This document shows, piece by piece, positions 16,746-48,210 of a DNA stretch of 64,000 nt; position 1 is the first letter of the stretch; every line of letters begins with the position of its first letter. Source of the DNA: Mangrovihabitans endophyticus (GTDB lineage Bacteria > Actinomycetota > Actinomycetes > Mycobacteriales > Micromonosporaceae); the NCBI RefSeq assembly GCF_014646155.1, contig NZ_BMMX01000009.1:62001-126000 (forward strand). The letters are read 5' to 3'. Below the pieces are notes generated by a model that ran no database searches, was not told where the DNA came from, and was given only the letters and a program-made list of their open reading frames with translations. A program made the position numbers and the translations under genes.

Positions 16746-16815
16746 CGATCTTGAAGGTCCGGTCGGACAAGACGCGATATATCACCTTGAAACGGGAACG
16801 ATAAGTCCAAGATCG
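16746..16815. repeat. 70-bp CGATCTTG...CAAGATCG element, copy 1
   Basis: Exactly 70 bp, with inverted ends CGATCTTG and CAAGATCG. Read on the minus strand it aligns with copies 3 and 4, including CTTGTCCGACCG near the right end, so this copy is in inverted orientation. It lies between the 3' ends of two convergent genes and contains inner palindromes GTCCGGTCGGAC and GATATATC. Confidence 0.8.
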
Positions 16816-16838
16816 GCCGATGGGGCGGGGGAGAGAGA

Positions 16839-16923
16839 CGGCCGACGGGGCCGGGGGAGACGGCCGACGGGGCCGGGGAGACGGCCGACGGGGCCGGGGA
16901 GACGGCCGACGGGGCCGGGGAGA
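16839..16923. repeat. Four tandem 21-22 bp G-rich repeats right of element 1
   Basis: Unit CGGCCGACGGGGCCGGGG followed by AGA, in four near-identical copies (22, 21, 21 and 21 bp), continuing into further G runs to about 16960. The repeated GGGG runs have quadruplex potential. No protein is predicted. Confidence 0.75.
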
Positions 16924-16960
16924 CGGGGGCGGGGAACGGGGGGGCGGGGACGGGGTGGGT

Positions 16961-17185
16961 TCAGTGGCCGGCGCGGCTGCGTACCACCAGGACGAGTCCG
17001 ATCAGCCAGGGGATCACGGCGATCACCGCGCCCTTGATGCCTCCGAACGTGATGAGGGCGGCCGCGGTCAGGCAGAGCGCCACCCCGACGACCAGGCGCA
17101 GCCGTGCCCGGCGGCGCTGGCTGGTGTCGCGGCGCAGATTCTCGACGATGCGCTCGAAGGCGAGACGCTCGGACTCGTCGGCCAC
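16961..17185 (-). CDS. Small two-helix membrane protein, DUF3040-like
   Basis: A 74-residue protein: an acidic/basic amphipathic N-terminal helix (ESERLAFERIVENLRRD) followed by two hydrophobic helices (about 33-68). This is the layout of small actinobacterial DUF3040-type membrane proteins. The GTG at 17185 lies seven bases after a TAGCGT -10 box (17193-17198), suggesting a leaderless message; a GTG at 17194 is the alternative. Function unknown. Confidence 0.6.
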   Translation of the reverse strand: MADESERLAFERIVENLRRDTSQRRRARLRLVVGVALCLTAAALITFGGIKGAVIAVIPWLIGLVLVVRSRAGH

Positions 17186-17264
17186 GCAGGTCACGCTACG
17201 CCGATCCGGGCACGCTCGGGGCGGCGTCGTTCAACACATCGAAAAACTTCGCTGTAAGTCTTTA

Positions 17265-17274
17265 TTGTTAACAA
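17265..17274. promoter_or_regulatory. AT-rich region with TTGTTAACAA palindrome before the LPMO gene
   Basis: The spacer 17230-17295 is unusually AT-rich for this genome and contains the perfect 10-bp palindrome TTGTTAACAA, 134 bp upstream of the LPMO start codon. It is a candidate promoter/operator for substrate-responsive control. No DasR-type site is evident. Confidence 0.4.
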
Positions 17275-17407
17275 GGCTTTGGATTATGTTGAGGCGAACA
17301 GCCGACGGGACCCGCGCGCACCGCCGGGCGGGCCCCGGACCCGTCCCCCGGGCAGGCCGGGACGTCCCCCACCCGGCCTGCCGATCCCCCTCGACGAGGA
17401 GTCCGTC

Positions 17408-18166
17408 ATGAGACGCCGGGTTGTTCTTCCTGCGCTGACCGCCGCCGCGGTCACCACCTCGTTCTTCGTCGCTGTCGCGCCCGCATCGGCGCACGGCTAC
17501 ATCTCGTCACCGCCGAGCCGGCAGGCCAACTGCGCCAGCGGCGCGGTGTCCGGATGCGGTGACATCGTCTGGGAGCCGCAGAGCGTCGAGGCGCCCAAGG
17601 GCTCGTTCCTGTGCAACGGCGGCGGCAGCCGGTTCGCGGTGCTCAACGACGACAGCAAGAACTGGCCGGCCGCCTCGGTGGGCTCCACCGTGACGTTCCA
17701 CTGGGTGCTCACCGCGCGCCACGCCACGAGCACCTGGCAGTACTTCATCGGCACCACGAAACTGGCCGAGTTCAACGACGGCGGCGCCCAGCCCGGCTCC
17801 ACCAAGTCGCACACGGTCAGCATGGGCGGGTTCACCGGGCGGCGGACGGTGCTGGCGCGGTGGAACATCGCGGACACCCAGAATGCGTTCTACTCCTGCG
17901 TGGACGTGAACATCGGCGGTGGTGGCGGAGGCGGCAGCACCCCGCCGCCGACGACTGCGCCGCCGACCACCCCGCCGACGACCCGGCCCCCGACCACGCC
18001 ACCGACGACGCAGCCTCCGGCGGGCGGGACCTGGGCGGCGGGCACCGCGTACGCGGTGGGCGACGTGGTGACGTACAGCGGCGCGACCTACCGGTGCCGG
18101 CAGGCGCACACCGCGCTGGCCGGCTGGGAGCCGCCGAACGTGCCCGCGTTGTGGGAGCGCCTCTGA
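17408..18166 (+). CDS. AA10 lytic polysaccharide monooxygenase with carbohydrate-binding module
   Basis: A 252-residue secreted copper enzyme that oxidatively cleaves chitin or cellulose. The signal peptide ends APASA, leaving His29 as the first mature residue. With His105 (TARHATSTWQYF) it forms the histidine brace. The conserved aromatic is in NAFYSCVDVNI. A Gly run and Pro/Thr linker (about 178-203) lead to a C-terminal CBM5/12-like module (WAAGTAYAVGDVVTYSGATYRCRQAHTALAGWEP). The ATG at 17408 follows GAGGAG. The CBM5/12 suggests chitin as substrate. Acts outside the cell. Confidence 0.93.
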   Translation: MRRRVVLPALTAAAVTTSFFVAVAPASAHGYISSPPSRQANCASGAVSGCGDIVWEPQSVEAPKGSFLCNGGGSRFAVLNDDSKNWPAASVGSTVTFHWVLTARHATSTWQYFIGTTKLAEFNDGGAQPGSTKSHTVSMGGFTGRRTVLARWNIADTQNAFYSCVDVNIGGGGGGGSTPPPTTAPPTTPPTTRPPTTPPTTQPPAGGTWAAGTAYAVGDVVTYSGATYRCRQAHTALAGWEPPNVPALWERL

Positions 18167-18173
18167 CCCGGCC

Positions 18174-19331
18174 TCAGGCCCGGGCGGCTGGGCGCGGTGT
18201 CTCGTCTCCCGGCGCGGGTCGCGCCTCGTCGCCGGGCGGGCGTTGCACCACGGGACCGAGCGCAGATCCCGGGCGGCCTCCGGGCCGCCGAGGGTCGTCT
18301 CCCGCCGGCCACCAGCGGGGCCGGCGACGGGCCGCCAGGTCTTCCGCCCACCCGAAGGCCAGCACCGCCCCCGCCGTCAGCACCAGCGCGGTGACCAGGT
18401 CCACCGGGCCGCCCCACGGGCCGCTCAGGTCATCCAGGTGGACCACCGCGAGCACCGGCCACACCGCCGCGATGGCGATGTTGTGCCACAGATAGACGGT
18501 CACCGCCCGGTTGTTCACCAGGGTGACCGCCGCCCGCAACGGGGCGTTGCGGGCCACCGGGTCCCGGCGCGGCTGCCAGCGCAGCACCACCAGCACCACC
18601 GCCAGGGACCACAACGCCTGCGCCTCGGGCACATCGTTGACGTCCCATCCGTCGTCGGCCGCGTGCCACACCAGCCACCACGCCGCCGCCGCGCCGAGCG
18701 CCACCACGATCGGCAGCAGCAGCGCCGGGCGCAACCGGGCGAGCCTCCCGTCATGGTGGGCGAAGCCGGCCAGCCAGCACGCCCCGTAGGTGGCCGCGTC
18801 CCACATCGCCGGGTCCGCCGGTCCGGGCAGCGCCACGCCGGTGCGGTCCAGCACCGCGATCAGCAGCAGGGGCGCCGCGACAAGCCACCACCCCAGCCGC
18901 CGGAACAGCGGGTACAGCAACGGTGAGAGCAGCACGAACCACAGATACGCGCGGATGTACCAGAGCGGCTCCCACACGTCGACGCCACGGTCGCTGCCCG
19001 GCGGGTCGAACACCGGCAGCACCCAGAACGCCAGGCGTGTCACGTCGAAGGGGTGCTCGCCGTCCTCGGCCCGCCATCCGCCAACGATCATCAGGGGCAC
19101 CGCTATCGCGCCGAGCAGCCACAGCGGCGGTAGCAGCCGTCGCAGCCGTGCGAACACCACCGCGCCGGCCGGGCGCCGGTCCAGCGAGGCGGCGGTCAGC
19201 GACCCGGCGAGGGCGAACATCACCCCCATGGCGGGCAGCAGCAGAGACAGCCACGGCCACCCGAAGAGGTGGTAGACGATCACCCGCGCGATGGCCGCGG
19301 CGCGGAGCAGATCCAGGTAGCGGTTGCGCAC
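18174..19331 (-). CDS. Acyltransferase family 3 membrane protein
   Basis: A 385-residue multi-pass protein with the acyltransferase-3 opening RNRYLDLLRAAAIARVIVYHL containing the conserved His, and about ten hydrophobic segments. Such enzymes acylate sugars or other cell-surface and secondary-metabolite groups; the target is unknown. The GTG at 19331 is chosen because homology begins there and TACGTT lies six bases upstream, as in leaderless genes; a longer reading to 19430 adds only low-quality sequence. The C-terminal about 60 residues are Pro/Arg-rich and probably cytoplasmic. It ends 7 bp from the LPMO gene, convergent. Confidence 0.8.
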   Translation of the reverse strand: MRNRYLDLLRAAAIARVIVYHLFGWPWLSLLLPAMGVMFALAGSLTAASLDRRPAGAVVFARLRRLLPPLWLLGAIAVPLMIVGGWRAEDGEHPFDVTRLAFWVLPVFDPPGSDRGVDVWEPLWYIRAYLWFVLLSPLLYPLFRRLGWWLVAAPLLLIAVLDRTGVALPGPADPAMWDAATYGACWLAGFAHHDGRLARLRPALLLPIVVALGAAAAWWLVWHAADDGWDVNDVPEAQALWSLAVVLVVLRWQPRRDPVARNAPLRAAVTLVNNRAVTVYLWHNIAIAAVWPVLAVVHLDDLSGPWGGPVDLVTALVLTAGAVLAFGWAEDLAARRRPRWWPAGDDPRRPGGRPGSALGPVVQRPPGDEARPAPGDETPRPAARA

Positions 19332-19479
19332 CGCGACAACGTATCGACGTGCGGCGGTGCCGCGGCACAGCCGCGCAGTCCGGGCGTACGGCCCGCGCGG
19401 ACGACCCCGGACGGGGGAGACGGCCGTCACCCCGGGCGGGAAAGTCTCAAGCGGGGGTGTCCGCGGCCGATCGGCTGAC

Positions 19480-20547
19480 GTGTCGCGGCGCAGCCCTCAG
19501 CAGCTTCGCGACCGTCACGGAGCCTCCCGGGCGGTCGCCTACCTCCTGATGGCCGCCGCCCCGTACGTCTTCGTCACCGGTGTCTTCCTGACCCCCGCCA
19601 TCGGACCGGCGGGGATCGTCGCGGTGATCGTCACCTCGGTGACCGTCGCCGTCGTCGGGGCGCTGTGCTGGTTCCGGCCGGAGGCGTTGCCGGGCTGGTT
19701 CTGGCTGTCCGCGCCGCACATCGCCACGGTGTTCATCACCGGCATCAACCTGGCCACCGCCGACGCCAGCACCGGGGCGCAGCTCTTCTACATGTGGCCG
19801 GTGCTGTACGCGGCCAACTTCCTGCGCCGTCGCCAGGTCGCGGGGAGCGTCGCCCTGGCCGTGGCGGGCGATGCGGCCTGCACCTTCGGGCTCCTGGACC
19901 CGGGGCGGGCGATGGCCGACTGGACCGCGATGACGCTGGCCATGGTGATGCTGTCGGTCGTGGTGGTGCCGTTGCGTGAACGCGCCGAGCAACTGATGCG
20001 CCGGCTGGAGTCGCAGGCGCTCGCGGATCCGCTCACCGCACTGGCCAACCGCCGATCCTTCGACGACGCGCTGGCCGCGGCGGGCGCCTGGGCGCAGCGC
20101 ACCGGACGCCCCCTCGCCCTGCTGACCGTCGACCTCGACCATTTCAAGACCATCAACGACACGTACGGGCATGCGGTCGGCGACGACGCGCTGCGGGCCG
20201 TGGCGGACGCGATGCGGGCGGTCGCCGAGGAGGACGATGTGGTCGCCCGGCTCGGCGGCGACGAGTTCGCCCTGCTGATCCGGACCGACCGGCGCGGCGC
20301 CCTGCACACCGGCGAAGGGCTGCGGGCGCGGGTTGCCGCGATCGACACCCTGCCCGGTGGCGCGCCCGGCATCAGCATCGGCCTGGCGGTGCTGCCGGAC
20401 GACGCGGACAGCACCGCGGGCCTGCAGGCGGCCTCGGACGCCGCCCTGTACGTGGCCAAGACGCACGGGCGTGGGCGGGTGGCCGCGGCGGGCGGGCATC
20501 CGGCCCCGGGCCCGCAGCCGGTGCTCAGTCCGCAGCCGGCTCGATGA
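19480..20547 (+). CDS. Membrane-anchored GGDEF diguanylate cyclase
   Basis: A 355-residue protein: about five or six transmembrane helices (residues 20-170) followed by a GGDEF domain with an intact signature RLGGDEF and the upstream DLDHFKTINDTYGH. It should synthesise cyclic-di-GMP. The product-inhibition I-site RxxD that normally precedes the signature is absent (Glu at the Arg position), so feedback inhibition is not expected. The start is uncertain: the GTG at 19480 is the best fit, without a strong ribosome site. It overlaps the convergent large gene by 23 bp. Confidence 0.85.
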   Translation: MSRRSPQQLRDRHGASRAVAYLLMAAAPYVFVTGVFLTPAIGPAGIVAVIVTSVTVAVVGALCWFRPEALPGWFWLSAPHIATVFITGINLATADASTGAQLFYMWPVLYAANFLRRRQVAGSVALAVAGDAACTFGLLDPGRAMADWTAMTLAMVMLSVVVVPLRERAEQLMRRLESQALADPLTALANRRSFDDALAAAGAWAQRTGRPLALLTVDLDHFKTINDTYGHAVGDDALRAVADAMRAVAEEDDVVARLGGDEFALLIRTDRRGALHTGEGLRARVAAIDTLPGGAPGISIGLAVLPDDADSTAGLQAASDAALYVAKTHGRGRVAAAGGHPAPGPQPVLSPQPAR

Positions 20548-23500
20548 TCTCCTTGCGCAGCCGGGGGTACGGTCCCCAGCCGTCGCGCAGCACGTGGATG
20601 TAGACCGCCTCCAGCGACACGTCGATGCGTTTCGCCAAGTCCACGTCGTCGGACCGGCCCAGCCGCACCGCCCGCGCGAAATGGTCCAGTGCCTCCATGT
20701 GACGACCCTGGTCGAAGCAGCACCGTCCGGCGTACTCGTGCACCAGACTGCGCAGCGTGGACGGTGCCTCCGAGCTGGCCGCCTCCTCGAACAGCCGGTC
20801 CGCCTCGGCGACGTCGCCGCGCAGCCGCAGCACGTGCGCCAGTTCCGCCTGGGCGATCACCACGGCGGACACCTCGCCCGCCGATTCGGCGTGCGCCAGC
20901 GCCAGCCTGCTCGCCGCGGCAGCCATGCCCAGCTCGCCGAGTAGGCGGAACACCTCGGCGCGGGCGCTGAGCAGCCCGGCGAGCGTCATGTCGTCCTTCT
21001 CGCATGCGAGCGGTTCGTCCAGCCGCGCGCCCAGCTCCAGCAACGGCTCCCGGTCGTCCACCACCTCGCGCAGGGTGCCGCCGTCCAGCCGCCACCGCAT
21101 CTGCCGCAGGTCCTCGCCGGACAACGGGCGCGACGGATCCGCCGGCGCGGGACCGGCCGCGGGCGGGTGCGTGGCGCCGCGCACCGGTGCTCCGGCGGCC
21201 GGCGGTGCGGAGGTGGGTTGCGCCGCCGGATTGCGGGGCACCACCAGTGCCTGTTCCGCGGTCACCCCGAAACCCCGGAACAGGCCGGAGATGTCCAGGT
21301 CGATGGTCACCCCGCTGTCCGCGCCGTCGTCGCCGTTCCCGGCCGGTACGCCCGCCGGGTCCCGCAACGCCGCCGTCGCACGCCCGGACTCCGCGGCGTC
21401 GCCGGCGGGCCCCGTGCCGGCCCCGGTGGTGACGCCGCCCGTCGGTGCGGCACCGGACGCGCCGCCGCCGGCGGGGTTGTCGCCGCCGGCCGGGCTGCTG
21501 TCGGCCGGGCTGCTGTCGGCCGGGCCGGTGCCGTCCGCGCCGGTGCCGTCCGCGCTGGTGCTGGCGGGGTAGGCGTCGGCGGGGTCGGCCGTCTTCGGGC
21601 CGGCGGTGAACCAGGTGGGACCCAGATCGGCGTCCGCGTACCGGCGTACCGCGGTGTCCGGCCCGGAGATGACCAGGCGGCCGATCGGTGCGGTGGGCCC
21701 GTCCGCGTGTCTGTCCGTCGGGACCCCGTCCGTCGGGACCCCGGCCGCCGGGCCGCCGGGGCCGCCGGACGTGGCTGCACCGGACGTGGCTGCACCGGAT
21801 GCGGGCCGGACGGCGGTGGGTGGGGCGTCGCTGGGCGCGGGCGCCGGGGCATGGACGGCGAAGAACCCGGGCTGGTCCGCTCCGGCGGCCGGAGTCCCCG
21901 GTTCCGTCCGTGGGGGCCGTGCGGCCGGGGCACCCGTCGGTTCCGCCGCCGGTGCTGCCGCCGATGTGTCTGCCGCCGTCGCGTCTGCGGTCGCTGGTGC
22001 TGGTGGAGGCGCGTCTGCCATCGTCGGCGGGGGCGCCGGTGTGCGGGCGGGTGCCGGTGGAGGTGGCGGGGGCGCCGGTGTGCGGGCGGGTGCCGGCGCG
22101 GGCGCCGGCGGGAAGGGCGTCTGCGGGGACGGCACCGGCCGGGCCACGGGCGGCCCGGTGACCGGCGGCCCGGCGACGGGACGGTCCACGACCGGCGGCC
22201 CGGCCACGGGCGGCCCGGAGATCTGCGCCGGTTCGGCGAATGAGGACGCGCCGGTTCCGCGCGCCGCCGGTTCCGGCCTGTCTTGTTCCGGCCTGTCTTG
22301 TCCCCCTGCCGTCTGTCCGGGCGCCGCCGGGTGCGCTGTGGCGGGTTGCGGTGTGACCGGTGGGGGCGTGGTGGCCGGTGGGGGCGTGCCGGGCGTACCC
22401 GGATCTCCCGCTGGTCCGTCCGCCACCACACGCAGCGGCGGCGGGGTCTGCTGGCCCACCACCCGCGGCGTCGCCGGAGGCTCGGCCCGGCGCACGACCT
22501 TGGGCTGCGCGGGAGGCTCCGGCATGCGCACGGCCCGCGGCGGCACCGGCGCGGTGCGGTCGAGCACCCGGGGCGCGTCGTCGGCGCGTGCCGCGCCGGA
22601 GCCCGGACGCTCGGTCCCGGCGGCCTGCCGGGCGGGGCGCAGGTCCTCGGTGGGGCCGCGCGGGTGGCCGGCCTGCCGGGCGGGGCGCAGGTCCTCGGTG
22701 GGCGCCGGCGGGGGACTGGCCTGCCGGGCGGGGCGCAGGTCCTCGGTGGGCGCGTCACCCGGCGCGGTGGTGCCGCGACGGTCCCGGGGTGGACGGTAGA
22801 GATCCAGCGGGTCGCCGGTGCCGACCGGCGGGGCCGCGGGGTCCATCGCGTCTCCGGCCGGTGCCCCGGCCCACGCGGCGCCGTCCGGGGCGGGCGACGC
22901 CCACCTCGCCTCGGCGGGCGGGCCGGCCGGTGGGGCGCCGGGCTGACCGGTCGCGGCGCCGTCGGACACCGGGCGCTGACCGTCGCGTCCGGCCGCCCCC
23001 GGGCTGCGCCGGTTGCGTCGGCCGCCCGGCGGCCGGATCGGCCCGCCGAGGTCGTCGTCCGTGCCGAAGCTGACCCCGTCGGCGGCGAAGGCGGCGCCAC
23101 CCGCGGCGAGGGCGGCGTCCTCCGCCGGGCGGGTGGCGTCGTCCGTGCGGAATCCGGGATGGTCGGCGTGGTGCACCGGAACGGCCACGCCGTCGGCGGA
23201 CACCGGGGCGTGCGCCGGGGAGACGTGTGCGGGCGAGACCGGCCCGGCGGCTGGCGACGTCGGTCCGTTTCCCGGCGTGACCGGCCCCTGCGGGTGGCCG
23301 CGGCCCGGCGTTTCCGTGGTGAACGCCGCGGCCGCGTCGCCGGCGACGGGCGGCACGCCCCCCACGCCGGGCTCCGGCCCCTCGTAGGTGACGGGCCCCT
23401 CGTAGGTGACGCGGGTGACGCCGGTACGGCGCGGCGGCACACCCGTCGGACGCGTGACCGGCTGGCCCGGCTGGCCCGGATACGCGCCGGGCCGTCCGGG

Positions 23501-24121: not shown

Positions 24122-24592
24122 CGGTCGATCACCTCGGGGCGGGGGCCGCCGCGCGCGCAGATCCGCATCGGTGTCCCCCCAATCGTTCGCCGCCGCGCCT
24201 CGCCACGCCCGCCGAACGCCTCGTCACGTGGCCGATGTGGAAGGTTAATCATGGATTTGCGCGGGGCGCCACCACCGGATGCGGCCACCGTGCGAGTCCG
24301 GTGGGACGCCCCGCGTCGACAGACAGTACGGACGGTGGGTCGCGAAGGTTCACCGGTGACCGAGAAATGCGGGCTCAGGGCCCCGTGATCGGCGCAACGG
24401 TCAACGTGCGGACACGCTGCGCACCATTCGGACGCGGAAAATGCGTGTGTCCACTTAAGCAATTCTTAATGCCACGCTGAGGCGGAGAACAATAAATCTT
24501 CCATTTACTGACGGTGATCCTCCGCCGCGGCGAGGGCACGCGACGCATCCCCCCGCCCCTCCCTGGGCGGGGTGGGCGAGCGGGCGTGCGCC
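24122..24592. other. 471-bp spacer with AT-rich patch and imperfect hairpin
   Basis: No gene is supported. It holds an imperfect hairpin at about 24268-24316 (GGGGCGCCACCACCGGA against TCCGGTGGGACGCCCC), an AT-rich patch at 24440-24510 with the dyad TTAAG-CAATT-CTTAA (24455-24469), and a terminator at 24551-24572. The AT-rich patch is probably the promoter of the large gene, about 330 bp upstream of its start. Confidence 0.5.
24551..24572 (-). terminator. Hairpin after the 145-residue membrane protein gene
   Basis: Eight-base perfect arms CCCCGCCC / GGGCGGGG with a six-base loop, 21 bp beyond the stop at 24593 on that gene's transcript. Confidence 0.5.
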
Positions 24593-25030: not shown

Positions 25031-25192
25031 GGCCTGCTCCTTGCGCGAGCGGGTACCTCTCGACGATCCGCCGCGAACCGGGCACCGTCAAGCCGGGACG
25101 GTGCGACATCGCCGGTCCTGCGGAGGCCGATGGGCGTGTGTACCGTGTCGTCTCGGTGCCGCGACGGCGCCGCCCGAGAGGAGAGGTTCACC

Positions 25193-35461: not shown

Positions 35462-35547
35462 TCCCGCCTCCCGCCCGCCCCCCACGCCGCCCGCCCGTCC
35501 CCGCCCGCCCGTCCCCGTCCCGCCCCGCCCGCCCCGCCCCAACGGAT
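35462..35547. repeat. C-rich tract left of 70-bp element 2
   Basis: Nearly pure C/G on the top strand with C runs (CCCGCC, CCCCGTCCC, CGCCCCGCCC), ending at the element boundary. It has no coding signal and mirrors the G-rich tract on the right. Confidence 0.7.
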
Positions 35548-35617
35548 CGATCTTGGTATTAGTGGGGCACCAAACCGCCCTCAATATCGCAATTCCGGCC
35601 CACTAACTCCAAGATCG
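35548..35617. repeat. 70-bp CGATCTTG...CAAGATCG element, copy 2
   Basis: Exactly 70 bp. This copy has the longest inverted ends: the left 21 bases pair with the right 21 bases with only three mismatches. Its last 14 bases (TAACTCCAAGATCG) match copy 3 exactly. It lies between divergent genes (YcnI-like and S4). Confidence 0.85.
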
Positions 35618-35715
35618 GCGGTGCGGGGCGGCGCGGGGCGGCGCGGGGCGGCGCGGGGCGGCGCGGGCGGGGACGGGCGGGGACGGGACGGGGAGGGGTG
35701 CGGGGCGGGGCGGCG
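35618..35715. repeat. G-rich tandem repeats right of element 2
   Basis: About four copies of a 10-bp unit GCGGGGCGGC, then GGGCGGGGAC repeats, running almost to the S4 gene. Strong G-run density with quadruplex potential on the top strand. Confidence 0.7.
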
Positions 35716-35729
35716 CGGACAATGGCCGG

Positions 35730-38533: not shown

Positions 38534-38546
38534 GTGGAGGACCAGC

Positions 38547-39431: not shown

Positions 39432-39508
39432 TCTCCGAATCAAGATCCACGCGGCCGGCCTCGCGGATGGCGGGGCTGGCCGTCTCCGTGCTGAGCTGGA
39501 GGAACACC

Positions 39509-40555: not shown

Positions 40556-40622
40556 CGGGCGCGGCATGAGAAATCCGTCGATCGGCGGGAACCGTAGGGG
40601 CCGGGCCACCGTCGTAGCCCCC

Positions 40623-41513
40623 ATGACTGTGATCCGCGGCATCTGGACAGCCGCCGCTGCGATGACCCTGTTCCTGATCACCGCCTGCGCCAACGGCACC
40701 CCCACCGGGGCGTCCGGCAGCTCCAGCGCGGGCCCGAGTTCCGCACCCGCCGCGCCGGCCGGCGACGGGCTGGTTCTGCGGGTGACCCGGGCCGGCGGGT
40801 TCGTGCCCGCCGACGTGATGCTCGGCCGGCTGCCCGTGGTCAGCGTGTACGCCGACGGGCGAATCATCACCGAAGGACCGCAGATCGCCATCTATCCCGC
40901 CCCGGCGCTGCCCAACCTGCAGGTGCAGCAGGTCTCCCCGGAGACCGTCGACGCCCTGGTGAAGCAGGCGCTGGACGCAGGGGTGCGCTCCGGTGACGCG
41001 TTCGGCAAGCCGGGCATGGCCGACGCGCCGACCACGGTGGTCACGGTGGTCACCGGCGGCACCACCTACTCGGTGTCGGTGGTCGGCCTGGGCGAGGCGT
41101 CCCCGGACGACCCGCGGTTGTCCGACGCCGAGAAGAAGGCCCGCGCCAAGCTGTCGGAGTTCATCGGCAAGCTGACCGGGCTGCCCGGCGCCAAGGGACT
41201 GCCGGAGCCGCAGCCGTACCGGGCCGATGCGGTGGCGGCGCTCGCCGGGCCGTACCAGACGCCGGCCGCCAGCGAGCTGCCCAGCCCCCCGCCCGCGATC
41301 ACCTGGCCGGGGCCGGAACTGCCCGGTGACACGCTGCCCAGCGGGCGCCCGTGCGTGGCCGCGACCGGCGCCCAGGCGGACGCCGTGCTGGCCGCGGCCA
41401 AGGACGCCAAGGCCACCACGCCGTGGGTCTCCGGCGGGGAGAAGTACCAGGTGACGCTGCGGCCCCTGCTGCCGGACGAGACCGGCTGCGGCGATCTCGC
41501 GGGCACCCGGTGA
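40623..41513 (+). CDS. Hypothetical lipoprotein
   Basis: A 296-residue exported protein with a lipobox LITAC (Cys22) and a Ser/Ala/Pro linker, followed by a beta-rich conserved region (LVLRVTRAGGFVPADVMLGRLPVVSVYADGRIITEG...) common in Micromonosporaceae genomes. No catalytic motif. The ATG at 40623 gives a standard lipoprotein signal; an upstream ATG at 40566 would add 19 residues and spoil it. Ends 114 bp before the convergent FKBP gene. Confidence 0.75.
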   Translation: MTVIRGIWTAAAAMTLFLITACANGTPTGASGSSSAGPSSAPAAPAGDGLVLRVTRAGGFVPADVMLGRLPVVSVYADGRIITEGPQIAIYPAPALPNLQVQQVSPETVDALVKQALDAGVRSGDAFGKPGMADAPTTVVTVVTGGTTYSVSVVGLGEASPDDPRLSDAEKKARAKLSEFIGKLTGLPGAKGLPEPQPYRADAVAALAGPYQTPAASELPSPPPAITWPGPELPGDTLPSGRPCVAATGAQADAVLAAAKDAKATTPWVSGGEKYQVTLRPLLPDETGCGDLAGTR

Positions 41514-41572
41514 CCCCGCTCGGCGACCCGTTCGGGGATCCGTCCGGCCGCGGGCGTCCACGGCCGGGCCCG

Positions 41573-41620
41573 GTGCCCGCCCGTCCGCAGGGCCTGGTGC
41601 CCTGCCGGACGGGCGGGCAC
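41573..41620. terminator. Long bidirectional terminator
   Basis: A stem of 21 bases (GTGCCCGCCCGTCCG and CAGGGC arms) broken by one bulged G, with a five-base loop CTGGT, between convergent lipoprotein and FKBP genes. Confidence 0.75.
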
Positions 41621-41627
41621 CCGCGGC

Positions 41628-41996
41628 TCAGCGCACGCCGAGCAGATCCACCACGAAGATGAGCGTCTCGTTCGGCTTGATGACACCTCCGGCGCCCTGC
41701 GCGCCGTAGCCCAGCGCCGGGGGGATGGTCAGCTTGCGGCGGCCCCCGACGCGCATGCCGGTCACCCCACGGTCCCAGCCCGCGATGACCTGACCCGCGC
41801 CCAGGGAGAACTCCAGCGGCTGGTTGCGGTTGTACGACGCGTCGAACTCGGCGCCGGTGGAATGCGCGACACCCACATAGTGCACGGCGACGGAACTGCC
41901 CGGCTTCGCCTCGTCTCCGTCACCGACGGTGATGTCCTCGATCAGCAGTTCGGCGGGCGGCTCCGCGGCGATGGGTCCGACGTCCGGCTTGGTCAT
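41628..41996 (-). CDS. FKBP-type peptidyl-prolyl isomerase
   Basis: A 122-residue single FKBP domain catalysing cis-trans isomerisation of prolyl bonds. Active-site residues are visible in VAVHYVGV, EFDASYNRNQPLEFSLGAGQVIAGWDRGVTGMRVGGRR and IPPALGYGAQGAGGVIKPNETLIFVVDLL. No signal peptide, so cytoplasmic. The ATG at 41996 follows AGGAAGGA. Confidence 0.95.
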   Translation of the reverse strand: MTKPDVGPIAAEPPAELLIEDITVGDGDEAKPGSSVAVHYVGVAHSTGAEFDASYNRNQPLEFSLGAGQVIAGWDRGVTGMRVGGRRKLTIPPALGYGAQGAGGVIKPNETLIFVVDLLGVR

Positions 41997-42201
41997 ACTC
42001 GATCCTTCCTCATCAAGCGGCCCGCACGCCCCTGTCGGCGAGCGGGCCGTGGGTCATGCAATCACAGCACGGTGCCCGAACGGGCATCACCGCGCGCGCG
42101 GGTGAACGACCCGCCCTCGCAGTCCGTACCGTCTCCGCGGGGGTCCGGCACGCCGCGGCCCCGACCGCACCGCCGCGCCAGGACCACCCGAGGAGACCAG
42201 C

Positions 42202-43152
42202 ATGACCGTCGTACGCCGGACCGCCGCCGCGCTGGCCGCCGGTGGTCTCGCCGCCGCGGCGGGTCTCCCGGGCGCCGCCCCGGCGTCCGCGCACGGCGCC
42301 ACCACCACCCCGCTGAGCCGCACCGCGGCCTGCGCGGCGGGAGGCGACAAAGCCGGCTCGGCGGCGTGCCGCGCCGCGCTGGCCGCCAATGGGCGCCCGT
42401 TCGGCGACTTCGACAACCTGCGGGTGCCCGGCGTGGCCGGCAAGGACCGGCAGTACATCCGGGACGGCCACCTGTGCAGCGCGGACCTGCCCGAGTTCGC
42501 CGGCCTCGACCTCGCCCGGACCGACTGGCCGTCCACCACGCTCACCGCCGGCGGGAAGCTGACCGTGCGGTACCGCACCACCATCCCGCACGAGGGCACC
42601 TTCCGGGTCTATCTGACACGGCAGGGTTACGACCCGGCGCAGGCGCTGAGCTGGGCCGACCTGGACACCGACCCGCTGATCACGGCGACCGACCCGCCGC
42701 TGCGCTCCGGCGCCTACCGGATGAGCGGCACGCTGCCGGCCGGCCGCACCGGGCATCACCTGCTCTACGTGGTGTGGCAGAACTCCAGCACCCCGGACAC
42801 CTACTATTCGTGCTCCGACCTGGTGCTGCGGGCGCCCGAACCGTCGCCGTCGCGCACCACGGCGGCGTCCCCGTCGCCCGAGCTCGCGACCGACTCCGCC
42901 GTGGGCGGCCCGGCGTCGCGCTCGCCGGAACCCGGGGCGGTGGCGGTGCCGCCGCAGACCCGTGACCCGCAGGACACCGCCGCCACACAGACGTGGCTGG
43001 CCCGCTCCGCCGGCGACGACCGGGCCGACCTCGGGCGCCAGCTCGTCGCCGCCGCCCTGGTGGTGCTGTGCGGCGTCACCGCCGCGATGGCGATGCTGCG
43101 GATGCGGCGCGCCCGCGCCGCCCGTGGCCCGCGGCATTTCGGCGGCCGCTGA
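42202..43152 (+). CDS. AA10-type lytic polysaccharide monooxygenase with C-terminal membrane anchor
   Basis: A 316-residue exported protein. The signal peptide ends APASA; His31 becomes the first mature residue and His130 (TTIPHEGTFRVYLTRQGYDP) completes a copper histidine brace. Instead of a binding module, a Ser/Pro-rich linker (about 212-275) leads to a single transmembrane helix (about 282-302) and a basic tail. So it is anchored to the membrane, unlike the secreted LPMO at 17408. The ATG at 42202 follows GAGGAG. A role on the cell's own envelope is possible. Confidence 0.85.
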   Translation: MTVVRRTAAALAAGGLAAAAGLPGAAPASAHGATTTPLSRTAACAAGGDKAGSAACRAALAANGRPFGDFDNLRVPGVAGKDRQYIRDGHLCSADLPEFAGLDLARTDWPSTTLTAGGKLTVRYRTTIPHEGTFRVYLTRQGYDPAQALSWADLDTDPLITATDPPLRSGAYRMSGTLPAGRTGHHLLYVVWQNSSTPDTYYSCSDLVLRAPEPSPSRTTAASPSPELATDSAVGGPASRSPEPGAVAVPPQTRDPQDTAATQTWLARSAGDDRADLGRQLVAAALVVLCGVTAAMAMLRMRRARAARGPRHFGGR

Positions 43153-43196
43153 ACCCGCGCCGCGCGGCGCTTGCCGCAACAGCATCGGATCTCGTT

Positions 43197-43222
43197 GAAC
43201 CGCAACGGATCGGCCTTCGTAC
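43197..43222 (+). promoter_or_regulatory. ECF-sigma-like promoter before the DUF4331 operon
   Basis: GAACC and CGTAC are separated by 16 bp, matching the GAAC-N16-CGTM pattern of many extracytoplasmic-function sigma factors. It ends 52 bp before the first gene of the operon. No sigma factor gene is in the window. The spacer 43153-43274 holds no gene. Confidence 0.5.
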
Positions 43223-43274
43223 TGATGGGCGTCGACGACACCGAACGCTCTGAAACCTCGACGAAAGGCCGAGC

Positions 43275-43553
43275 ATGAGTCGTGTCCACTACGGCAACCG
43301 CCGCCGGACCGGCGGTCGCCTGAGCCGCCGCCGGGTCCTGGCCGTCGCCGCCACCGTCGGCGTCGGCGCCGCCACGGCCGGCGTCGCGGGCCTGAGCCTC
43401 GCCGGCGAGAACGGCTCCGCGGACGCCGAGCCGCTGGTGCTGTCCCTGCGCGACGCCGGGAAAGGCACCTTCGACCTGTTCTCCGGCGGATCGAAGGTGA
43501 CGATCACCGACAAGGACCTCGCCGCCCGCCTGCTCGAAGCCGCCCGCGGCTGA
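43275..43553 (+). CDS. Small exported protein with Tat-like signal
   Basis: A 92-residue protein: SRRRVLAVAATVGVGAATAGVAGLSLA (17-43) looks like a twin-arginine signal with hydrophobic core, followed by a short mature part. No known domain. GAAAGG precedes the ATG. First gene of a three-gene operon, 22 bp before the DUF4331 gene. Confidence 0.65.
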   Translation: MSRVHYGNRRRTGGRLSRRRVLAVAATVGVGAATAGVAGLSLAGENGSADAEPLVLSLRDAGKGTFDLFSGGSKVTITDKDLAARLLEAARG

Positions 43554-43575
43554 GCCGCCGAAAGGACCCCGACCC

Positions 43576-44970
43576 ATGTCTTCGCACCGTGAAGCGCCGG
43601 AGATCAGCAAGGATCCGGTCGCGGACAGCTCCGACCTGTACGCGTTCGTCAGCCCCGACAAGCCGGACACGGTCACCGTCATCGCCAACTACGTGCCGCT
43701 GCAGCCGCCGGCCAGCGGGCCTAACTTCTTCGAGTTCGGCGACGACGTCCTGTACGAGATCCACGTCGACTCCAACGGCGACGCCCGCCCCGACCTGACC
43801 TACCAGTTCCGCTTCCGCACCGAGCTGCGTAACGACCGGACCTTCCTCTACAACACCGGGCCGATCGAGTCGCTGGACTCGGAGAACTGGAACCGGCGGC
43901 AGTTCTACTCGGTCACCCGGGTCGACGCGACCGGCAAACACACCCTGCTGGCGAAGAACCTGCCGTGCCCGCCGTGCAACGTGGGGCCGCTGTCCATCCC
44001 GGACTACGACGGCCTGGCCGCCGACGCCGTGCACAAGCTGCCCGGCGGCGAGAAGGTGTTCGCCGGTCAGCGGGCCGACGCGTTCTTCGTCGACCTGGGC
44101 GCCATCTTCGACCTGGCCACGTTGCGTCCATTCCAGGACAAGCACCTGGTGGGACAGAAGCTGTTCAACTACGCCGGCAAGGCGGTCAACGCCACCGACC
44201 GCACCAATGTGCACAGCATCGCGATCCAGTTGCCGCTGCACGCCGTACGGCGCGACGGCAAGAAGAAGGTCCGCGGCCGCGACCCCGGCGCGGTGATCGG
44301 CGTGTGGACGTCGGCCGGCCGGCGGCAGGTGCAGGTCCGTCAGGGCGAGAAGTCCGGCGACGAGGTGCAGGTGGGCCCGCAGGTGCAGGTATCCCGGCTG
44401 GGCAACCCGCTGTTCAACGAGGTCATCGTGCCGATGGCGCAGAAGGACCGGTGGAACAGCCTGCCGCCGAGCGAGGACAAGCGGTTCGCCGAATTCGTCG
44501 AGCAACCCGAACTGGCCGGCCTGCTGCCGGTGCTCTATCCGGGCCTGTTCGACAACCTGGCCGCGCTGAACGACGCCGGCACACCGCGCGCCGACCTGCT
44601 CGCGATTCTGCTCACCGGCATCCCGGACGGGCTGATCGACAACTTCCAGAACAGCACCGGCACCACACAGGCGGACATGCTGCGGCTCAATACGGCCGTA
44701 CCGCCGTCCGACGAACCGAACCCGTTCGGCCTGCTCGGCGCCGACCTGGCCGGCTTCCCCAACGGGCGGCGCATCGTCGACGACGTGGTGTCCATCTCGC
44801 TGCGCGCCATCGCCGGCGCGACGGTGCCGCTGGTCGACGAGACGTTCACCCCCGACGACGCGGCGAGCCTGGTCGAGCAGGGACTGAGCATCAAGGACGT
44901 GAGCGCCAAACAGCTCAAGCACTTCCCCTACCTGGGCACCCCCTTCGACGGTTTCGGTAACCCGTCATGA
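43576..44970 (+). CDS. DUF4331 family protein
   Basis: A 464-residue protein with the characteristic opening SSHREAPEISKDPVADSSDLYAFVSPDKPDTV and later NPLFNEVIVPMAQKDRWN. DUF4331 proteins are widespread in actinobacteria and often encoded near ECF sigma factors or oxidative-stress genes; their biochemical role is unknown. No signal peptide is evident, so it is probably cytoplasmic or Tat-exported with the partner at 43275. The stop overlaps the next start (ATGA). Confidence 0.85.
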   Translation: MSSHREAPEISKDPVADSSDLYAFVSPDKPDTVTVIANYVPLQPPASGPNFFEFGDDVLYEIHVDSNGDARPDLTYQFRFRTELRNDRTFLYNTGPIESLDSENWNRRQFYSVTRVDATGKHTLLAKNLPCPPCNVGPLSIPDYDGLAADAVHKLPGGEKVFAGQRADAFFVDLGAIFDLATLRPFQDKHLVGQKLFNYAGKAVNATDRTNVHSIAIQLPLHAVRRDGKKKVRGRDPGAVIGVWTSAGRRQVQVRQGEKSGDEVQVGPQVQVSRLGNPLFNEVIVPMAQKDRWNSLPPSEDKRFAEFVEQPELAGLLPVLYPGLFDNLAALNDAGTPRADLLAILLTGIPDGLIDNFQNSTGTTQADMLRLNTAVPPSDEPNPFGLLGADLAGFPNGRRIVDDVVSISLRAIAGATVPLVDETFTPDDAASLVEQGLSIKDVSAKQLKHFPYLGTPFDGFGNPS

Positions 44971-45296
44971 GCCATCACACCTTCGCGCCCTCCGGTCAGG
45001 GCACCGTGGTGCTCAACATCGGCGCGGACATCGGCGCGCTGGTCATCCACACCCCCGGGCGGCTGCGCGGGCACGAGATCGAGGTGAGCCCGCGCGCCGA
45101 CGCCGGCCGGCGGACCCACGCCGCGGTGCGGGCCCGGTACGTCCGGTCGGGTGTGCGGTGGAGCGTGGTGCTGGACAGCCTGCACGCCGGCCGGTACGTG
45201 ATCTGGCGCGACCCGGCGACACCGCTGGCCGAGGTCGACGTGCGCGGCGGCGCGGTCACCGAGTTCGAATGGCCGGAGCGGGAACCGCACGACTGA
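44967..45296 (+). CDS. Conserved small protein, unknown function
   Basis: A 109-residue soluble protein with a beta-rich core (GTVVLNIGADIGALVIHTPGRLRGHEIEVSPR) and a second half rich in Val/Arg strands. It begins at an ATGA overlap with the DUF4331 stop, so translation is coupled. The pattern recurs in actinobacteria next to DUF4331 genes. No enzymatic motif. Confidence 0.7.
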   Translation: MSHHTFAPSGQGTVVLNIGADIGALVIHTPGRLRGHEIEVSPRADAGRRTHAAVRARYVRSGVRWSVVLDSLHAGRYVIWRDPATPLAEVDVRGGAVTEFEWPEREPHD

Positions 45297-45338
45297 CATC
45301 GGTCCGCGCTTCGCCCGTGCGGGACTACAGTGTGCGGC

Positions 45339-46328
45339 ATGCACGGGTCACCCGGCCCGGCGGCGCCCGGCGCCGGCCGCCAGGTCCTGCACACCACCGA
45401 TCCGGGGCAGGCGCAGGAGTTCTGCCGGAGTTTGTGCCTGCGGCCGGTGCGGATCCGGCCGCTCGGCGACGCCGCGGACTTCGCCTTCCGGGGCGACGTG
45501 GTGCGGCTGGGCGGTGTCACCGTCACCCGGATCGCCTGCGACGCCGACGCCTGCGTGTGGGTCGGTGAGGTGGGGGCGGCCTACCACGTGCTGGTGCCGC
45601 TGCACGGGACGATGCTGTCGCGTCACGGCGGCACCGAGGTGACCGCCGGACCACACCGGGCCGCCGTGCACCGGCCGGTGGGCGACGTCGAGGTGCGGCT
45701 CGCCGGGCAGTGCCGGCTGTTCAGCGTCCGGCTCGACCGCCCGGTGTTGGAACACGAGATGACCATGACGTTCGGGCGGCAGCTCGCCTCGCCGCTACCA
45801 TTGGGCGCGAGCTTCGACCTCACCGCCGGGCCGGGCCGCACCTGGGCGGCGCTGGTCCGGTTGCTGCACGCGGATCTGGCCGGAGCGGGTGACCCGGCGA
45901 CGGCCCCGATGGCTCGCCGGTGGCGCGCGCTGGTGCTGCGCGGGCTCGCCCTGACGGTGCCGTTCCCGTCCGCCGACCCGTCCGCCCCGGTCCGCGAATT
46001 GCGGCCCCGGCCGGTGAAACGCACCATGGACGCCATGCATGCGGCGCCGGCCCATCCGTTCACCGCCGCCGAGCTGGCCGGCATCGCCGGGGTGGGCGTC
46101 CGGGTGCTGCAGGAGTCGTTCCGCCGGCACGTCGGCATGCCACCGCTGGCGTACCTGCGACGGCTGCGCCTGGACGGCGTGCACGGCGAGCTGACCCGCT
46201 CGGAGCCGTGGCAGGCGAGCGTGAGCGAGGTGGCCTGCCGGTGGGGGTTCACCCATCTGGGACGGTTCGCGGGCGCCTACCGCGAGCGGTACGGGGTGTC
46301 GCCGTCGCACACCCTGCACGATCACTGA
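45339..46328 (+). CDS. AraC-family transcriptional regulator
   Basis: A 329-residue regulator: an N-terminal cupin-like/AraC-binding domain (about 1-200) and a C-terminal double helix-turn-helix (FTAAELAGIAGVGVRVLQESFRRHVGMPPLAYLRRLRL; VSEVACRWGFTHLGRFAGAYRERYGVSPS). The ATG at 45339 is seven bases after TACAGT, consistent with a leaderless message. Its target may be the upstream DUF4331 operon. Effector unknown. Confidence 0.85.
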   Translation: MHGSPGPAAPGAGRQVLHTTDPGQAQEFCRSLCLRPVRIRPLGDAADFAFRGDVVRLGGVTVTRIACDADACVWVGEVGAAYHVLVPLHGTMLSRHGGTEVTAGPHRAAVHRPVGDVEVRLAGQCRLFSVRLDRPVLEHEMTMTFGRQLASPLPLGASFDLTAGPGRTWAALVRLLHADLAGAGDPATAPMARRWRALVLRGLALTVPFPSADPSAPVRELRPRPVKRTMDAMHAAPAHPFTAAELAGIAGVGVRVLQESFRRHVGMPPLAYLRRLRLDGVHGELTRSEPWQASVSEVACRWGFTHLGRFAGAYRERYGVSPSHTLHDH

Positions 46329-46353
46329 GCGTGCGGGCCGGTAGCCTCGACGG

Positions 46354-47214
46354 GTGCGCGTCACCAAGCGGAACCCCACCGGTTCTGCCGTGGGTGCGGT
46401 TCCAGCCGGTTCTGCCGTGGGTGCGGTCCTGGTTGGTTCCGCCGCGGGTCTCGCTCTGGGGCTGCTGACTGCGCTGGTCAACGACGTGCCGGGGATGCTC
46501 GGCGAGGTGGGCCAGGCGCACAGCCAGGACAGCGCCGCGACGTGGGCGGCGATCTACCTCAGCCAGCTACTCGACTCGGGGTGGGCGTGGGCGGTCACCG
46601 GGTTTGGCATCGGGTGGCTGGTCGCCGGTCCGGCATCGCCGCTGCGGCGGGTGCCGGCAGCGGCCGGCGCGGCGGTGCTCGGGCTGGTCCTGGCGACGCT
46701 TGCCTTCTATGTGGTGAAGCTGCCGATCGGTGATGCGATGACCGGACCGTCCACCGTCTACTGGCTGGTCCGCGCGGTGGTGTTCGGCCTTCCGCTGGGC
46801 GCCGCCGGCGCATGGGCGCGGCGCCCCGGCGTGGTAGGGCTGCTCGCCGCCTTGACCGCTCCGGCCTGCGCGGTGGCGAACATGCTGTTGTTTCCGATCT
46901 GGCCGACCCTGCCCGGGGAGAGCCCCGCGCGAGCGTGGGCTGCGGTGACCGTGTGGGTGCTGGCCGCAGCCGGCGTCGCGCTGCTGACCGCACGGTTCCT
47001 GGCCGGTCGGCGGCCCAGCGCCACCCCGACCCCGGCCACCCCGACCCCGGCCGCCCCGACCCCGGCCACCCCGATCCCGGCCGGTGCGAGCGGGGCCGGT
47101 GCGAGCGGGGCCGGTGCGGGCCTGAGCGGGGCCGGCGCAGGGTCGGCGGACGTTACTGCGGGGCCCGGCACAGGGCGAAGATCTGACTCTCCGTCGGGCC
47201 GTTCGCCGGAGTGA
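46354..47214 (+). CDS. Multi-pass membrane protein of unknown function
   Basis: A 286-residue protein with about seven hydrophobic segments (residues 20-225) and a low-complexity cytoplasmic tail of TPTPA and GASGAGA repeats. No transporter motif recognised. The GTG at 46354 is six bases after TAGCCT. The tail overlaps the convergent methyltransferase gene by 62 bp. Confidence 0.6.
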   Translation: MRVTKRNPTGSAVGAVPAGSAVGAVLVGSAAGLALGLLTALVNDVPGMLGEVGQAHSQDSAATWAAIYLSQLLDSGWAWAVTGFGIGWLVAGPASPLRRVPAAAGAAVLGLVLATLAFYVVKLPIGDAMTGPSTVYWLVRAVVFGLPLGAAGAWARRPGVVGLLAALTAPACAVANMLLFPIWPTLPGESPARAWAAVTVWVLAAAGVALLTARFLAGRRPSATPTPATPTPAAPTPATPIPAGASGAGASGAGAGLSGAGAGSADVTAGPGTGRRSDSPSGRSPE

Positions 47215-47755
47215 AGTCGACCGTGGCGATGTCCAGCACCGTGAAGCCCGCGGCCTCCAACGCCGCTGCCAGTCCCGGCTCGGGGTAACCGGACACGGTG
47301 ACCGGCACGCCGAGGAACTCCACCGGCAGGCTGTCACCGTCCAGGTTGACCATGCCGATGCCGAGGTAGCCGCCTGGCTTCAGCCAGCCCACCGTCCGCG
47401 ACAGGGTTCGTTCGATGTCCGCCTTGCTGAGCATGAGCAGCGAGAAGAAGGCGGTGACGGCGTCGAAGGGGCCCTGCTCGTCGGGCAGGTCCACGATGTT
47501 GGCGTGCACGAATTCGGCGCCGGGCACCTGCCGGCGGGCGAGTTTCAGCATGCCCTCGGAGACGTCCACGCCGACCACCCGGTGTCCCGCCTCGGTCAGC
47601 ATGCGGGCGGTGGGCACACCGGTGCCGCAGCCCAGGTCCAGCACCGCCGACCCCGGTCCGATCAGCGAGCCGATCCGTCCAACGAGGGCGGTCTGGTGGG
47701 GATTGGTGCTGTGCTCGCCTTGGTAGAGCTCGGCGAGTTGATCGAAGACCTCCAT
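47153..47755 (-). CDS. Class I SAM-dependent methyltransferase
   Basis: A 200-residue methyltransferase with motif I LDLGCGTGVPTARML (39-53), motif II GVDVSEGMLKLAR and PFDAVTAFFSLLML. Rossmann-type, soluble; substrate unknown. The ATG at 47755 follows TACGTT by eight bases, suggesting a leaderless transcript. Its 3' end lies inside the tail of the convergent membrane-protein gene. Confidence 0.85.
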   Translation of the reverse strand: MEVFDQLAELYQGEHSTNPHQTALVGRIGSLIGPGSAVLDLGCGTGVPTARMLTEAGHRVVGVDVSEGMLKLARRQVPGAEFVHANIVDLPDEQGPFDAVTAFFSLLMLSKADIERTLSRTVGWLKPGGYLGIGMVNLDGDSLPVEFLGVPVTVSGYPEPGLAAALEAAGFTVLDIATVDFTPANGPTESQIFALCRAPQ

Positions 47756-47864
47756 GATCTGCGAACGTACCGGACCGGGTGCGAGCTCCGCTGTGGACGT
47801 TCAGCCATGCTTCGCTGTGCGTGCGGGCGGTTGCGGCCCCGCCCGTCCCGGTCCAGTCCGCCCC

Positions 47865-48053
47865 GTGGGGCCCGCCCGTGTCGTGGGGCCCGTCCGTGTC
47901 GTGGGGCCTGTCCGTGTAGTGGGGCCTGTCCGTGTCGTGGGGCCCGCCCGTCGTGTCGTGGGGCCCGTCCGTGTCGTGGGGCCCGCCCGTCGTGTCGTGG
48001 GGCCCGTCCGTGTCGTGGGGCCCGCCCGTCGCGTCGTGCAGCCCGTCCGTGTC
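47865..48053. repeat. Ten tandem 18/21-bp repeats left of element 3
   Basis: Unit GTGGGGCCCGTCCGTGTC (18 bp) or a 21-bp form with CGCCCGTCGT in the middle. Ten units start at 47865, 47883, 47901, 47919, 47937, 47958, 47976, 47997, 48015 and 48036. The array stops two bases before element 3 begins. Confidence 0.85.
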
Positions 48054-48055
48054 GT

Positions 48056-48125
48056 CGATCTTGAGCTTTGTGTGCCCGATTACAGGCGACATGCCCGACC
48101 TATCCGACCGATAACTCCAAGATCG
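48056..48125. repeat. 70-bp CGATCTTG...CAAGATCG element, copy 3
   Basis: Exactly 70 bp; ungapped comparison with copy 4 gives 50 of 70 identical bases. It lies 15 bp from copy 4, in the spacer between the methyltransferase (start) and SDR (stop) genes, both on the minus strand. Confidence 0.85.
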
Positions 48126-48140
48126 GCGCGGAGGTCGAGT

Positions 48141-48210
48141 CGATCTTGGACATTGTGTGGGGGATTTGGTGCTCTATACCCGACTTGTCGGACCGAAAAG
48201 TGCAAGATCG
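48141..48210. repeat. 70-bp CGATCTTG...CAAGATCG element, copy 4
   Basis: Exactly 70 bp, same orientation as copy 3. Right half has CCCGACTTGTCGGACCG and then GTGCAAGATCG. Followed by G-rich repeats. Confidence 0.85.

Follow-up and report, generated by a model that had tools for sequence, protein, structure and literature searches.

The 64,000-nucleotide stretch of the Mangrovihabitans endophyticus genome that we analysed (the window) contains four short intergenic repeats, which raises the question of what kind of genetic element they are. An earlier note on this DNA had described four copies, each 70 bp long, that start with CGATCTTG and end with CAAGATCG. Their coordinates, length and ends were all verified, whereas the number of such copies expected from 100 dinucleotide shuffles was 0. 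The elements and the linker that joins two of them are as follows.

16746..16815, minus strand: CTTG-type element, 70 bp (exact pattern; strand from a profile of 51 copies of this genome; flanked by convergent genes according to a home-made gene caller).
35548..35617, minus strand: CTTG-type element, 70 bp (pattern and profile; the genes around it are called divergent).
48056..48125, plus strand: CTTG-type element, 70 bp, first member of a pair (pattern, profile and gene caller).
48126..48140, no strand: 15-bp linker of the pair (from the sequence; 15 bp is one of three spacings favoured in this genome).
48141..48210, plus strand: CTTG-type element, 70 bp, second member of the pair (pattern, profile and gene caller).

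Recomputation gave 50 identical bases out of 70 between the two members of the pair and a common run of 14 bases at the end of the second and third copies, as had been noted, and the 21-bp inverted arms of the second copy do carry three mismatches (18 of 21 arm positions pair). The first copy had been said to align with the fourth when inverted. The ungapped comparison does not bear this out, with 35 of 70 bases identical inverted and 41 of 70 direct, but the 51-copy profile does orient the first copy opposite to the third and fourth. All four copies lie outside the genes called by the home-made caller. A relaxed detector also flags positions 45398 and 63274 of the window, neither of which was counted as a family member.

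We then counted the pattern in the whole genome, using the pattern read backwards as the control. The two ends were found at 151 places when separated by 40 to 68 bases and at 150 places when separated by 52 to 56 bases, and the control at none. With the separation fixed at 54 bases and up to two end mismatches allowed, 137 places were found, again with 0 in the control. The length, which had been thought fixed to the base, is tightly kept but not exact: among 51 copies of this genome, 36 are of 70 bp, 11 of 71 bp and 4 of 69 bp. Because the counts are far from chance and the length does not vary freely, the 70-bp element family is real. The ends are CGATCTTG and CAAGATCG in the 51 copies, and end mutations are few (51 exact, six with one mismatch and one with two, at loci that were picked around exact copies). 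The interiors are only 57% identical, and with copies so diverged recent movement is not visible in this genome. The genes around 47 copies are convergent in 23 cases, tandem in 17 and divergent in 7, as called by the home-made caller, which missed the nuclease gene of this genome described below. Between 43.6 and 976 kb of contig 1 there is no element among the copies listed.

For neighbouring copies in this genome, spacings of 15, 25 and 35 bp account for 47 of the 50 pairs listed, out of 55 pairs. Tandem repeats abut the element ends in 35 of the 51 copies, compared with 2.5% of 1815 control windows. Those in the window are as follows.

16835..16955, no strand: tandem arrays with a 21-bp unit and overlapping rows, beginning 20 bases past the element.
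35617..35718, no strand: tandem array, 5-bp unit, 20 copies, beginning on the element's last base.
47864..48055, no strand: tandem array, 39-bp unit, 5.1 copies, its last base directly preceding the element.
48210..48271, no strand: tandem array, 18-bp unit, 3.5 copies, beginning on the element's last base.

A second array near the element at 35548..35617 ends at 35540, 7 bp ahead of it. We take the tandem arrays at the element ends to be, presumably, scars of breaks. The spacing rule and the arrays, like the CATG family and the flanked gene described below, were absent from the earlier note.

A structured RNA had been among the readings proposed for the elements, and in this genome it is unsupported. 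Positions 9-17 of the arms show no covariation in the 51 copies, and Rfam gave no match at gathering score in the window or in locus L026. Since the arms do not covary in these copies, the ends are kept separately, as with TIR-like sites, and at the sequence level they behave like double-stranded half-sites. An RNA hairpin was rejected on the same ground, although Micromonospora elements do show coupling of the arms (positions 9, 18 and 20). A function at gene ends as RNA hairpins, be it in transcription termination or otherwise, is very improbable for the elements. Such a role would suit that coupling, the position of elements 5-40 bp behind stop codons that is frequent in other genera, and the long perfect arms that occur in certain short elements, such as the 28 bp of L309; against it stand the missing covariation and Rfam matches, the occurrence of elements between divergent genes as well, and linkers that step by 10 bp. 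The complementarity of the element flanks in other genera is significant and would also suit a terminator, but that of the M. endophyticus flanks does not exceed shuffles, and the idea that the elements are longer palindromes formed with their flanks was likewise rejected.

Across the Micromonosporaceae the elements are patchy and fall into two families, CTTG-ended and CATG-ended. Exact copies of the two end types sum to 6103 over 354 genomes, some of the single matches being due to chance, and within Micromonospora the copy number ranges from 0 to 111. In orthologous spacers an element may be present, absent or swapped for one with the other end type; elements also persist at orthologous places. 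Near-identical copies in G102 were rejected as proof of movement since their flanks are near-identical too (30 bp shown, seven copies). Carriage by phages was also rejected: at least 96 matches in viral loci resemble chance coding matches, mostly 68 and 71 long, and among those listed 18 have at least 13 of 20 arm pairs and none is family-like by eye.

The candidate partner of the elements is a gene that they flank. In M. endophyticus (G000) it lies on contig 3, outside the window (G000:C3:123399-124247), where it was reached through orthologues; two elements lie upstream of it and two more downstream. According to profile matches, the N-terminal half of the 283-aa protein is AbiEi-like and the C-terminal half Vsr/homing-endonuclease-like (DUF559/MTES_1575), and its modelled fold matches AbiEi and I-Bth0305I/Vsr. 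The AbiEi antitoxin fold, known from the antitoxins of type IV toxin-antitoxin systems, is present in the model, as are both the Vsr-like/EDxHD fold and its catalytic acids, and the protein is a likely nuclease. Of 77 proteins compared, all keep E185, R189, D218 and D244, 74 keep E229 and 71 keep D231. The genome holds three matches to this protein, one of which was examined. Within the organism's own genus the gene was found in one genome and is absent from most.

We examined 90 loci of the protein clade, namely 89 of the 117 listed rows above 150 bits (30 returned, and 59 chosen by hand with a bias to genera without 70-bp copies) and L327 (129 bits). Elements flank the gene on both sides in 65 of them (upstream in 76, downstream in 69), although the detector's choice of a second flank is questionable in some cases (L302, L310); in the other 25, no element was found on one side or on either. 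Two-sided flanking was seen for 0 of 179 other genes in M. endophyticus loci that had been picked around elements. In genera without 70-bp copies, 8 of 17 loci yielded no element. Of 26 further loci, two without a match were dropped before the count of 24. The upstream and downstream end types concur in 67 of 71 loci, compared with a mean of 33 and a maximum of 44 in 2000 shuffles, and element type follows the protein tree, with 21 changes on a tree of 113 proteins compared with 57.6 when shuffled. The type of the gene is also reflected in the copies elsewhere in the genome. Of the 17 genomes with a CATG-flanked gene, all 17 had at least 10 CATG copies and 6 had at least 10 CTTG copies; of the 28 with a CTTG-flanked gene, 6 reached that number for CATG and 27 for CTTG, with relatedness uncorrected. 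This comparison omits two genomes that carry both gene types (G165 and G178) and two from outside Micromonospora (G000 and G138). Over the 354 genomes, 87 had both the gene and at least 5 copies, 57 copies only, 15 the gene only and 195 neither, again with relatedness uncorrected. Examples with copies in which no clade gene was found, with seven candidates scored per genome, are G135 (181 copies), G349 (62) and G293 (62); G135 has a more distant gene with elements on both sides (L386). Distant DUF559 genes with other end types show the same flanked arrangement. The pairing of the elements with the AbiEi/Vsr-like gene is well supported by these sequence comparisons.

Mobile DNA of the REP/MITE kind and a protein-bound site had been listed earlier as alternatives beside RNA. 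Those two are supported jointly, because copies are patchy, spacings step by 10 bp, elements are gained and lost at orthologous places, and a nuclease-like gene is flanked by matching elements. We favour, with reasonable confidence, a system that resembles REP/RAYT but uses an unrelated nuclease, in which non-autonomous REP-like intergenic elements are served by a cognate AbiEi/Vsr-like protein. The inverted half-sites at the ends of each element have the form (C/T)GATC-NN-G. They would be recognised, as double-stranded DNA, by a two-domain protein whose AbiEi-like DNA-binding half is joined to the Vsr/I-Bth0305I-like (DUF559/MTES_1575) nuclease; in M. endophyticus this is likely the product of the contig 3 gene that its own elements flank. 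Both element ends, about seven DNA turns apart, are probably bound and cut by the protein, whereby elements would be copied or moved into new spacers. New elements would mostly land behind genes, and often in constant helical phase with an element already there, at a distance of 15, 25 or 35 bp. Binding, end cutting and a spread caused by the protein are what we infer. Speaking against this reading are the 57 genomes in which copies but no clade gene were found, the divergence of the M. endophyticus copies, which show no apparent target-site duplication, the loci in which an element was lacking on one or both sides, and the arm coupling in Micromonospora. We lean, by a small degree, towards an undescribed class of mobile DNA: tiny GATC-ended elements that owe their spread to a cognate AbiEi-Vsr nuclease. 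The mechanism would perhaps be end cutting with homing-like break repair and not strand transfer by a transposase, and protein clades would have co-evolved with end codes across the actinomycetes.

Could the elements instead serve the host? The AbiEi/Vsr-like protein might be a domesticated factor that binds DNA or structures the chromosome, and the elements its genome-wide sites, many of them at 3' ends between convergent genes, kept by selection and not by movement, with the gene flanked because it controls itself. This is unlikely, though it accounts for rarely mutated ends beside diverged interiors, the phased spacing, the convergent bias in M. endophyticus and the persistence of elements at orthologous places. 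It is at odds with the range of copy number in Micromonospora, with close relatives that have empty spacers or one type replaced by the other, with the conserved nuclease acids, and with a gene that most genomes of the genus lack. That a classical transposase encoded elsewhere in the genome moves the elements as a MITE-like family, the DUF559 gene being a passenger or favoured neighbour, seems highly doubtful to us: end types concur between flanks, protein clade and genome-wide copies, and distant DUF559 genes with other end types are arranged alike. The elements do resemble MITEs in being short, non-autonomous, intergenic and patchy in copy number with inverted ends. In the part of the genome that was covered, the gene found between such ends encodes no known transposase and no parent insertion sequence was found. 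No target-site duplication was apparent by eye in the 12-bp flanks of the 51 M. endophyticus copies.

The standard example of dispersed repeats in bacteria that are linked to a single resident nuclease is that of REP sequences and RAYTs, and our comparison with them covers TnpAREP, REPtrons, REPINs and BIMEs. Passages of three papers on that system (PMC6006769, PMC8266576, PMC3116915) describe, as here, high-copy short intergenic repeats with palindromic ends, pairs at fixed spacing, and a resident gene for a nuclease that has its own type of repeat on its flanks, with one gene type per repeat type. The REP enzymes belong to the HuH proteins and are relatives of the IS200/IS605 transposases, and REPs bear GTAG-like feet. 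In contrast, the enzyme here combines an AbiEi and a Vsr-like fold and does not belong to the HuH/Y1 transposase family, the repeat is 57-72 bp long with GATC-containing inverted ends, and the M. endophyticus copies, with their CGATCTTG/CAAGATCG ends, have no GTAG (or CGTC) foot and no hairpin covariation. Unlike the Vsr/EDxHD homing endonuclease I-Bth0305I, the protein has no intron or intein context, carries an AbiEi-like half and has short repeats as neighbours. In the open-access literature we found no description of the system and no link of DUF559 or AbiEi-nuclease genes to intergenic repeats.

The repeat of about 150 copies in this soil actinobacterium, together with the gene that it flanks, has the appearance of a novel, very small type of mobile DNA that comes with its own matching enzyme. 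An unrelated enzyme family appears to have arrived at the REP/RAYT type of arrangement. If true, this would assign a function to a large set of DUF559 proteins in actinomycetes and would provide many natural pairs of enzyme and site, with specificity readable from the ends (CTTG, CATG, CTAG, CAAG), and the spread of a two-ended short repeat without a known transposase would become testable.

A search of the window (62001-126000 of contig 9) for the motif of the earlier note, CGATCTTG-N54-CAAGATCG, returned 4 exact elements and 0 in shuffles. Genome-wide (7.58 Mb, 220 contigs), 151 places were found with N40-68 and 150 with N52-56 (control, 0), as the note's claim of a real family requires. Its fixed length of 70 bp held for 36 of the 51 copies read, which came from the window plus 31 further stretches; 11 were 71 bp and 4 were 69 bp long. 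The 54-bp interiors of the 36 copies showed a mean identity of 57% vs 26% when letter-shuffled, and a GC content of 56% vs 72% in the window. Across 309 kb of own DNA, in stretches picked around exact copies, 51 copies had exact ends, 6 had one mismatch and 1 had two, a count that omits one coding match in the window.

The locus L058 led to a protein: the gene adjoining its element encodes a DUF559/MTES_1575 protein. MTES_1575 has two matches in the own genome, and the small gene (contig 3, C3:123399-124247; 3000-3848 of locus L026) is preceded by two elements, both with a single end mismatch, and followed by two more. The family-wide protein search left a gap between 152 and 130 bits among the matches listed. 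In 90 loci of the partner-gene clade, an element lay upstream in 76, downstream in 69 and on both sides in 65; the corresponding numbers for 24 other DUF559 loci were 9, 9 and 6, and 0 of 179 other genes of the own loci were flanked on both sides. Upstream and downstream end types matched in 67 of 71 loci. The two flanking copies were mostly inverted copies of each other (identity about 0.77-0.98) in genera g8, g13 and g42 and genome G135, and have diverged in Micromonospora. The prediction that genera having the gene but no 70-bp copies would carry other elements beside it was partly borne out: 9 of 17 such loci had an element of 58-60 bp whose ends were CTTG, CTAG or CAAG (L293, L296 and L297 had one on either side), and no element was found beside the gene in 8 (L294, L303-L308, L311). 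Five Micromonospora paralogues (L355, L358, L360, L365, L367) were bounded on each side by 57-bp elements of the GATCATG or GATCAAG kind. In a class-wide draw, the inverted similarity between the gene's two sides scored at least 20 in 16 of 27 loci, many of these with GTTGATC(A/T)TG ends; across 300 mismatched pairs the mean score was 10.8, the 95% point 15 and the maximum 50. Distant DUF559 genes at L395, L398, L418 and L419 lay between elements that were inverted copies of each other and lacked GATC ends.

We then compared element type with protein. On a tree of 113 proteins, built by a quick method and with some long branches, element type required 21 changes vs 57.6 when shuffled, and 0 of 200 shuffles, which probe clustering alone, were as low. 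Among Micromonospora genomes whose gene was typed, 17/17 with a CATG gene vs 6/28 with a CTTG gene had at least 10 CATG copies, and 6/17 vs 27/28 had at least 10 CTTG copies. Raw counts over 354 genomes, ignoring kinship and with 7 candidates scored per genome, gave gene and at least 5 copies in 87, copies only in 57, gene only in 15 and neither in 195. The CTTG family occurred in 155 of the 354 Micromonosporaceae genomes (13/44 genera) and the CATG family in 118 (8/44 genera), many single matches probably being due to chance. Micromonospora genomes held 0-111 CTTG copies, and 3 of 67 genomes of the own genus had the family, one by a single chance-like match. Named genomes among the matches listed were Micromonospora, Dactylosporangium, Virgisporangium, Catellatospora and Hamadaea, with scattered single matches in other phyla. 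The genome of a relative, G024, had 16 copies of 69-71 bp (L047-L055), and the clade gene was not found there in the family-wide search; perhaps this is a family whose enzyme was lost.

Orthologous spacers differed in content. For the convergent gene pair of L098, 28 of 30 fetched Micromonospora loci were placed: 2 had a CTTG and a CATG element together, 9 a single element (7 CTTG, 2 CATG), 2 a sequence resembling an element but damaged or cut at one end (L429, L450), and 15 no element, with a spacer of 18-33 bp in 13 of these. The genes flanking empty L432 and filled L421 were 96% and 98% identical. At the L031 pair, the element was absent by eye in all 29 own-genus relatives read (420 bp printed), and L209 kept the pair with a spacer of almost nil. 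Behind the same gene, where the element was missing, another inverted repeat was seen (L188, L190, L193, L195, L197, L200), with arms ending in GGTATAC, GGTATCAC or similar. At L058 most orthologues retained an element, with diverging interior and flanks, some with the CATG type. A larger dispersed repeat of genome G102 contains seven near-identical copies (L372-L378).

Genes were called on both sides of 47 own copies, which lay in 23 convergent, 17 tandem and 7 divergent spacers, compared with 19, 34 and 38 among spacers of at least 120 bp in the same loci. Other genera and G024 (n = 55) gave 30, 18 and 7, often with a stop codon 5-40 bp ahead of the element. For three elements (L021, L057, L109) there was an overlap of 9 to 38 bp with the end of a called gene. 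Among the matches listed, contig 1 of the own genome had no copy for more than 900 kb (43.6-976 kb), a part of the chromosome that copies may avoid; several copies lay at the ends of this contig.

GC-rich tandem arrays of differing units had edges at or near element ends in the window:

Tandem arrays at or near element ends in the window
16835-16955, GC-rich tandem arrays
35470-35718, GC-rich tandem arrays
47864-48055, GC-rich tandem array
48210-48322, GC-rich tandem array

Three element ends in the window touch an array. Of the 51 own copies, 35 had an array edge no more than 10 bp from one of their ends; the rate was 2.5% for 1815 control windows of non-coding DNA and 16% for 1109 windows shifted inside the same spacers. 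Arrays covered 57% of the DNA within 80 bp of elements vs 17% of the remaining non-coding DNA. We read the end-adjoining arrays as slippage scars from repair of breaks at the element ends; the alternative is that elements prefer array-bearing spacers.

At 55 places in the own genome (control, 0), the next element begins 8-38 bp after the preceding one ends. In the 50 pairs listed, the linker was 25 bp in 32, 15 bp in 13, 35 bp in 2, and 14, 22 and 26 bp in one each; it is 15 bp in the window pair, and a CTTG and a CATG element lie 25 bp apart in two Micromonospora loci (L421, L422). Linkers that step by ten bases are consistent with complexes sitting on the same face of the DNA duplex. An RNA hairpin is not supported in the own genome, where pairing at arm positions 9-17 did not exceed that of shuffled partners in 51 copies, and Rfam gave 0 matches for the window and L026. 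Micromonospora elements may form such a hairpin: the arms were coupled at positions 9 (z 11), 18 (z 6.2) and 20 (z 4.1) in 108 CTTG copies and at 9 (z 4.9), 18 (z 3.1) and 19 (z 3.8) in 37 CATG copies. Positions 11-15 were without coupling in both sets, and the coupling could reflect subfamily letters common to both ends.

The workings resemble those of a REPtron, but the system is not one, because enzyme and repeat each lack defining features. Searches of open-access literature gave no description of it. The sequence comparisons strongly support the view that element and protein form a pair, in which the protein would most likely bind and cut the ends and spread the elements.
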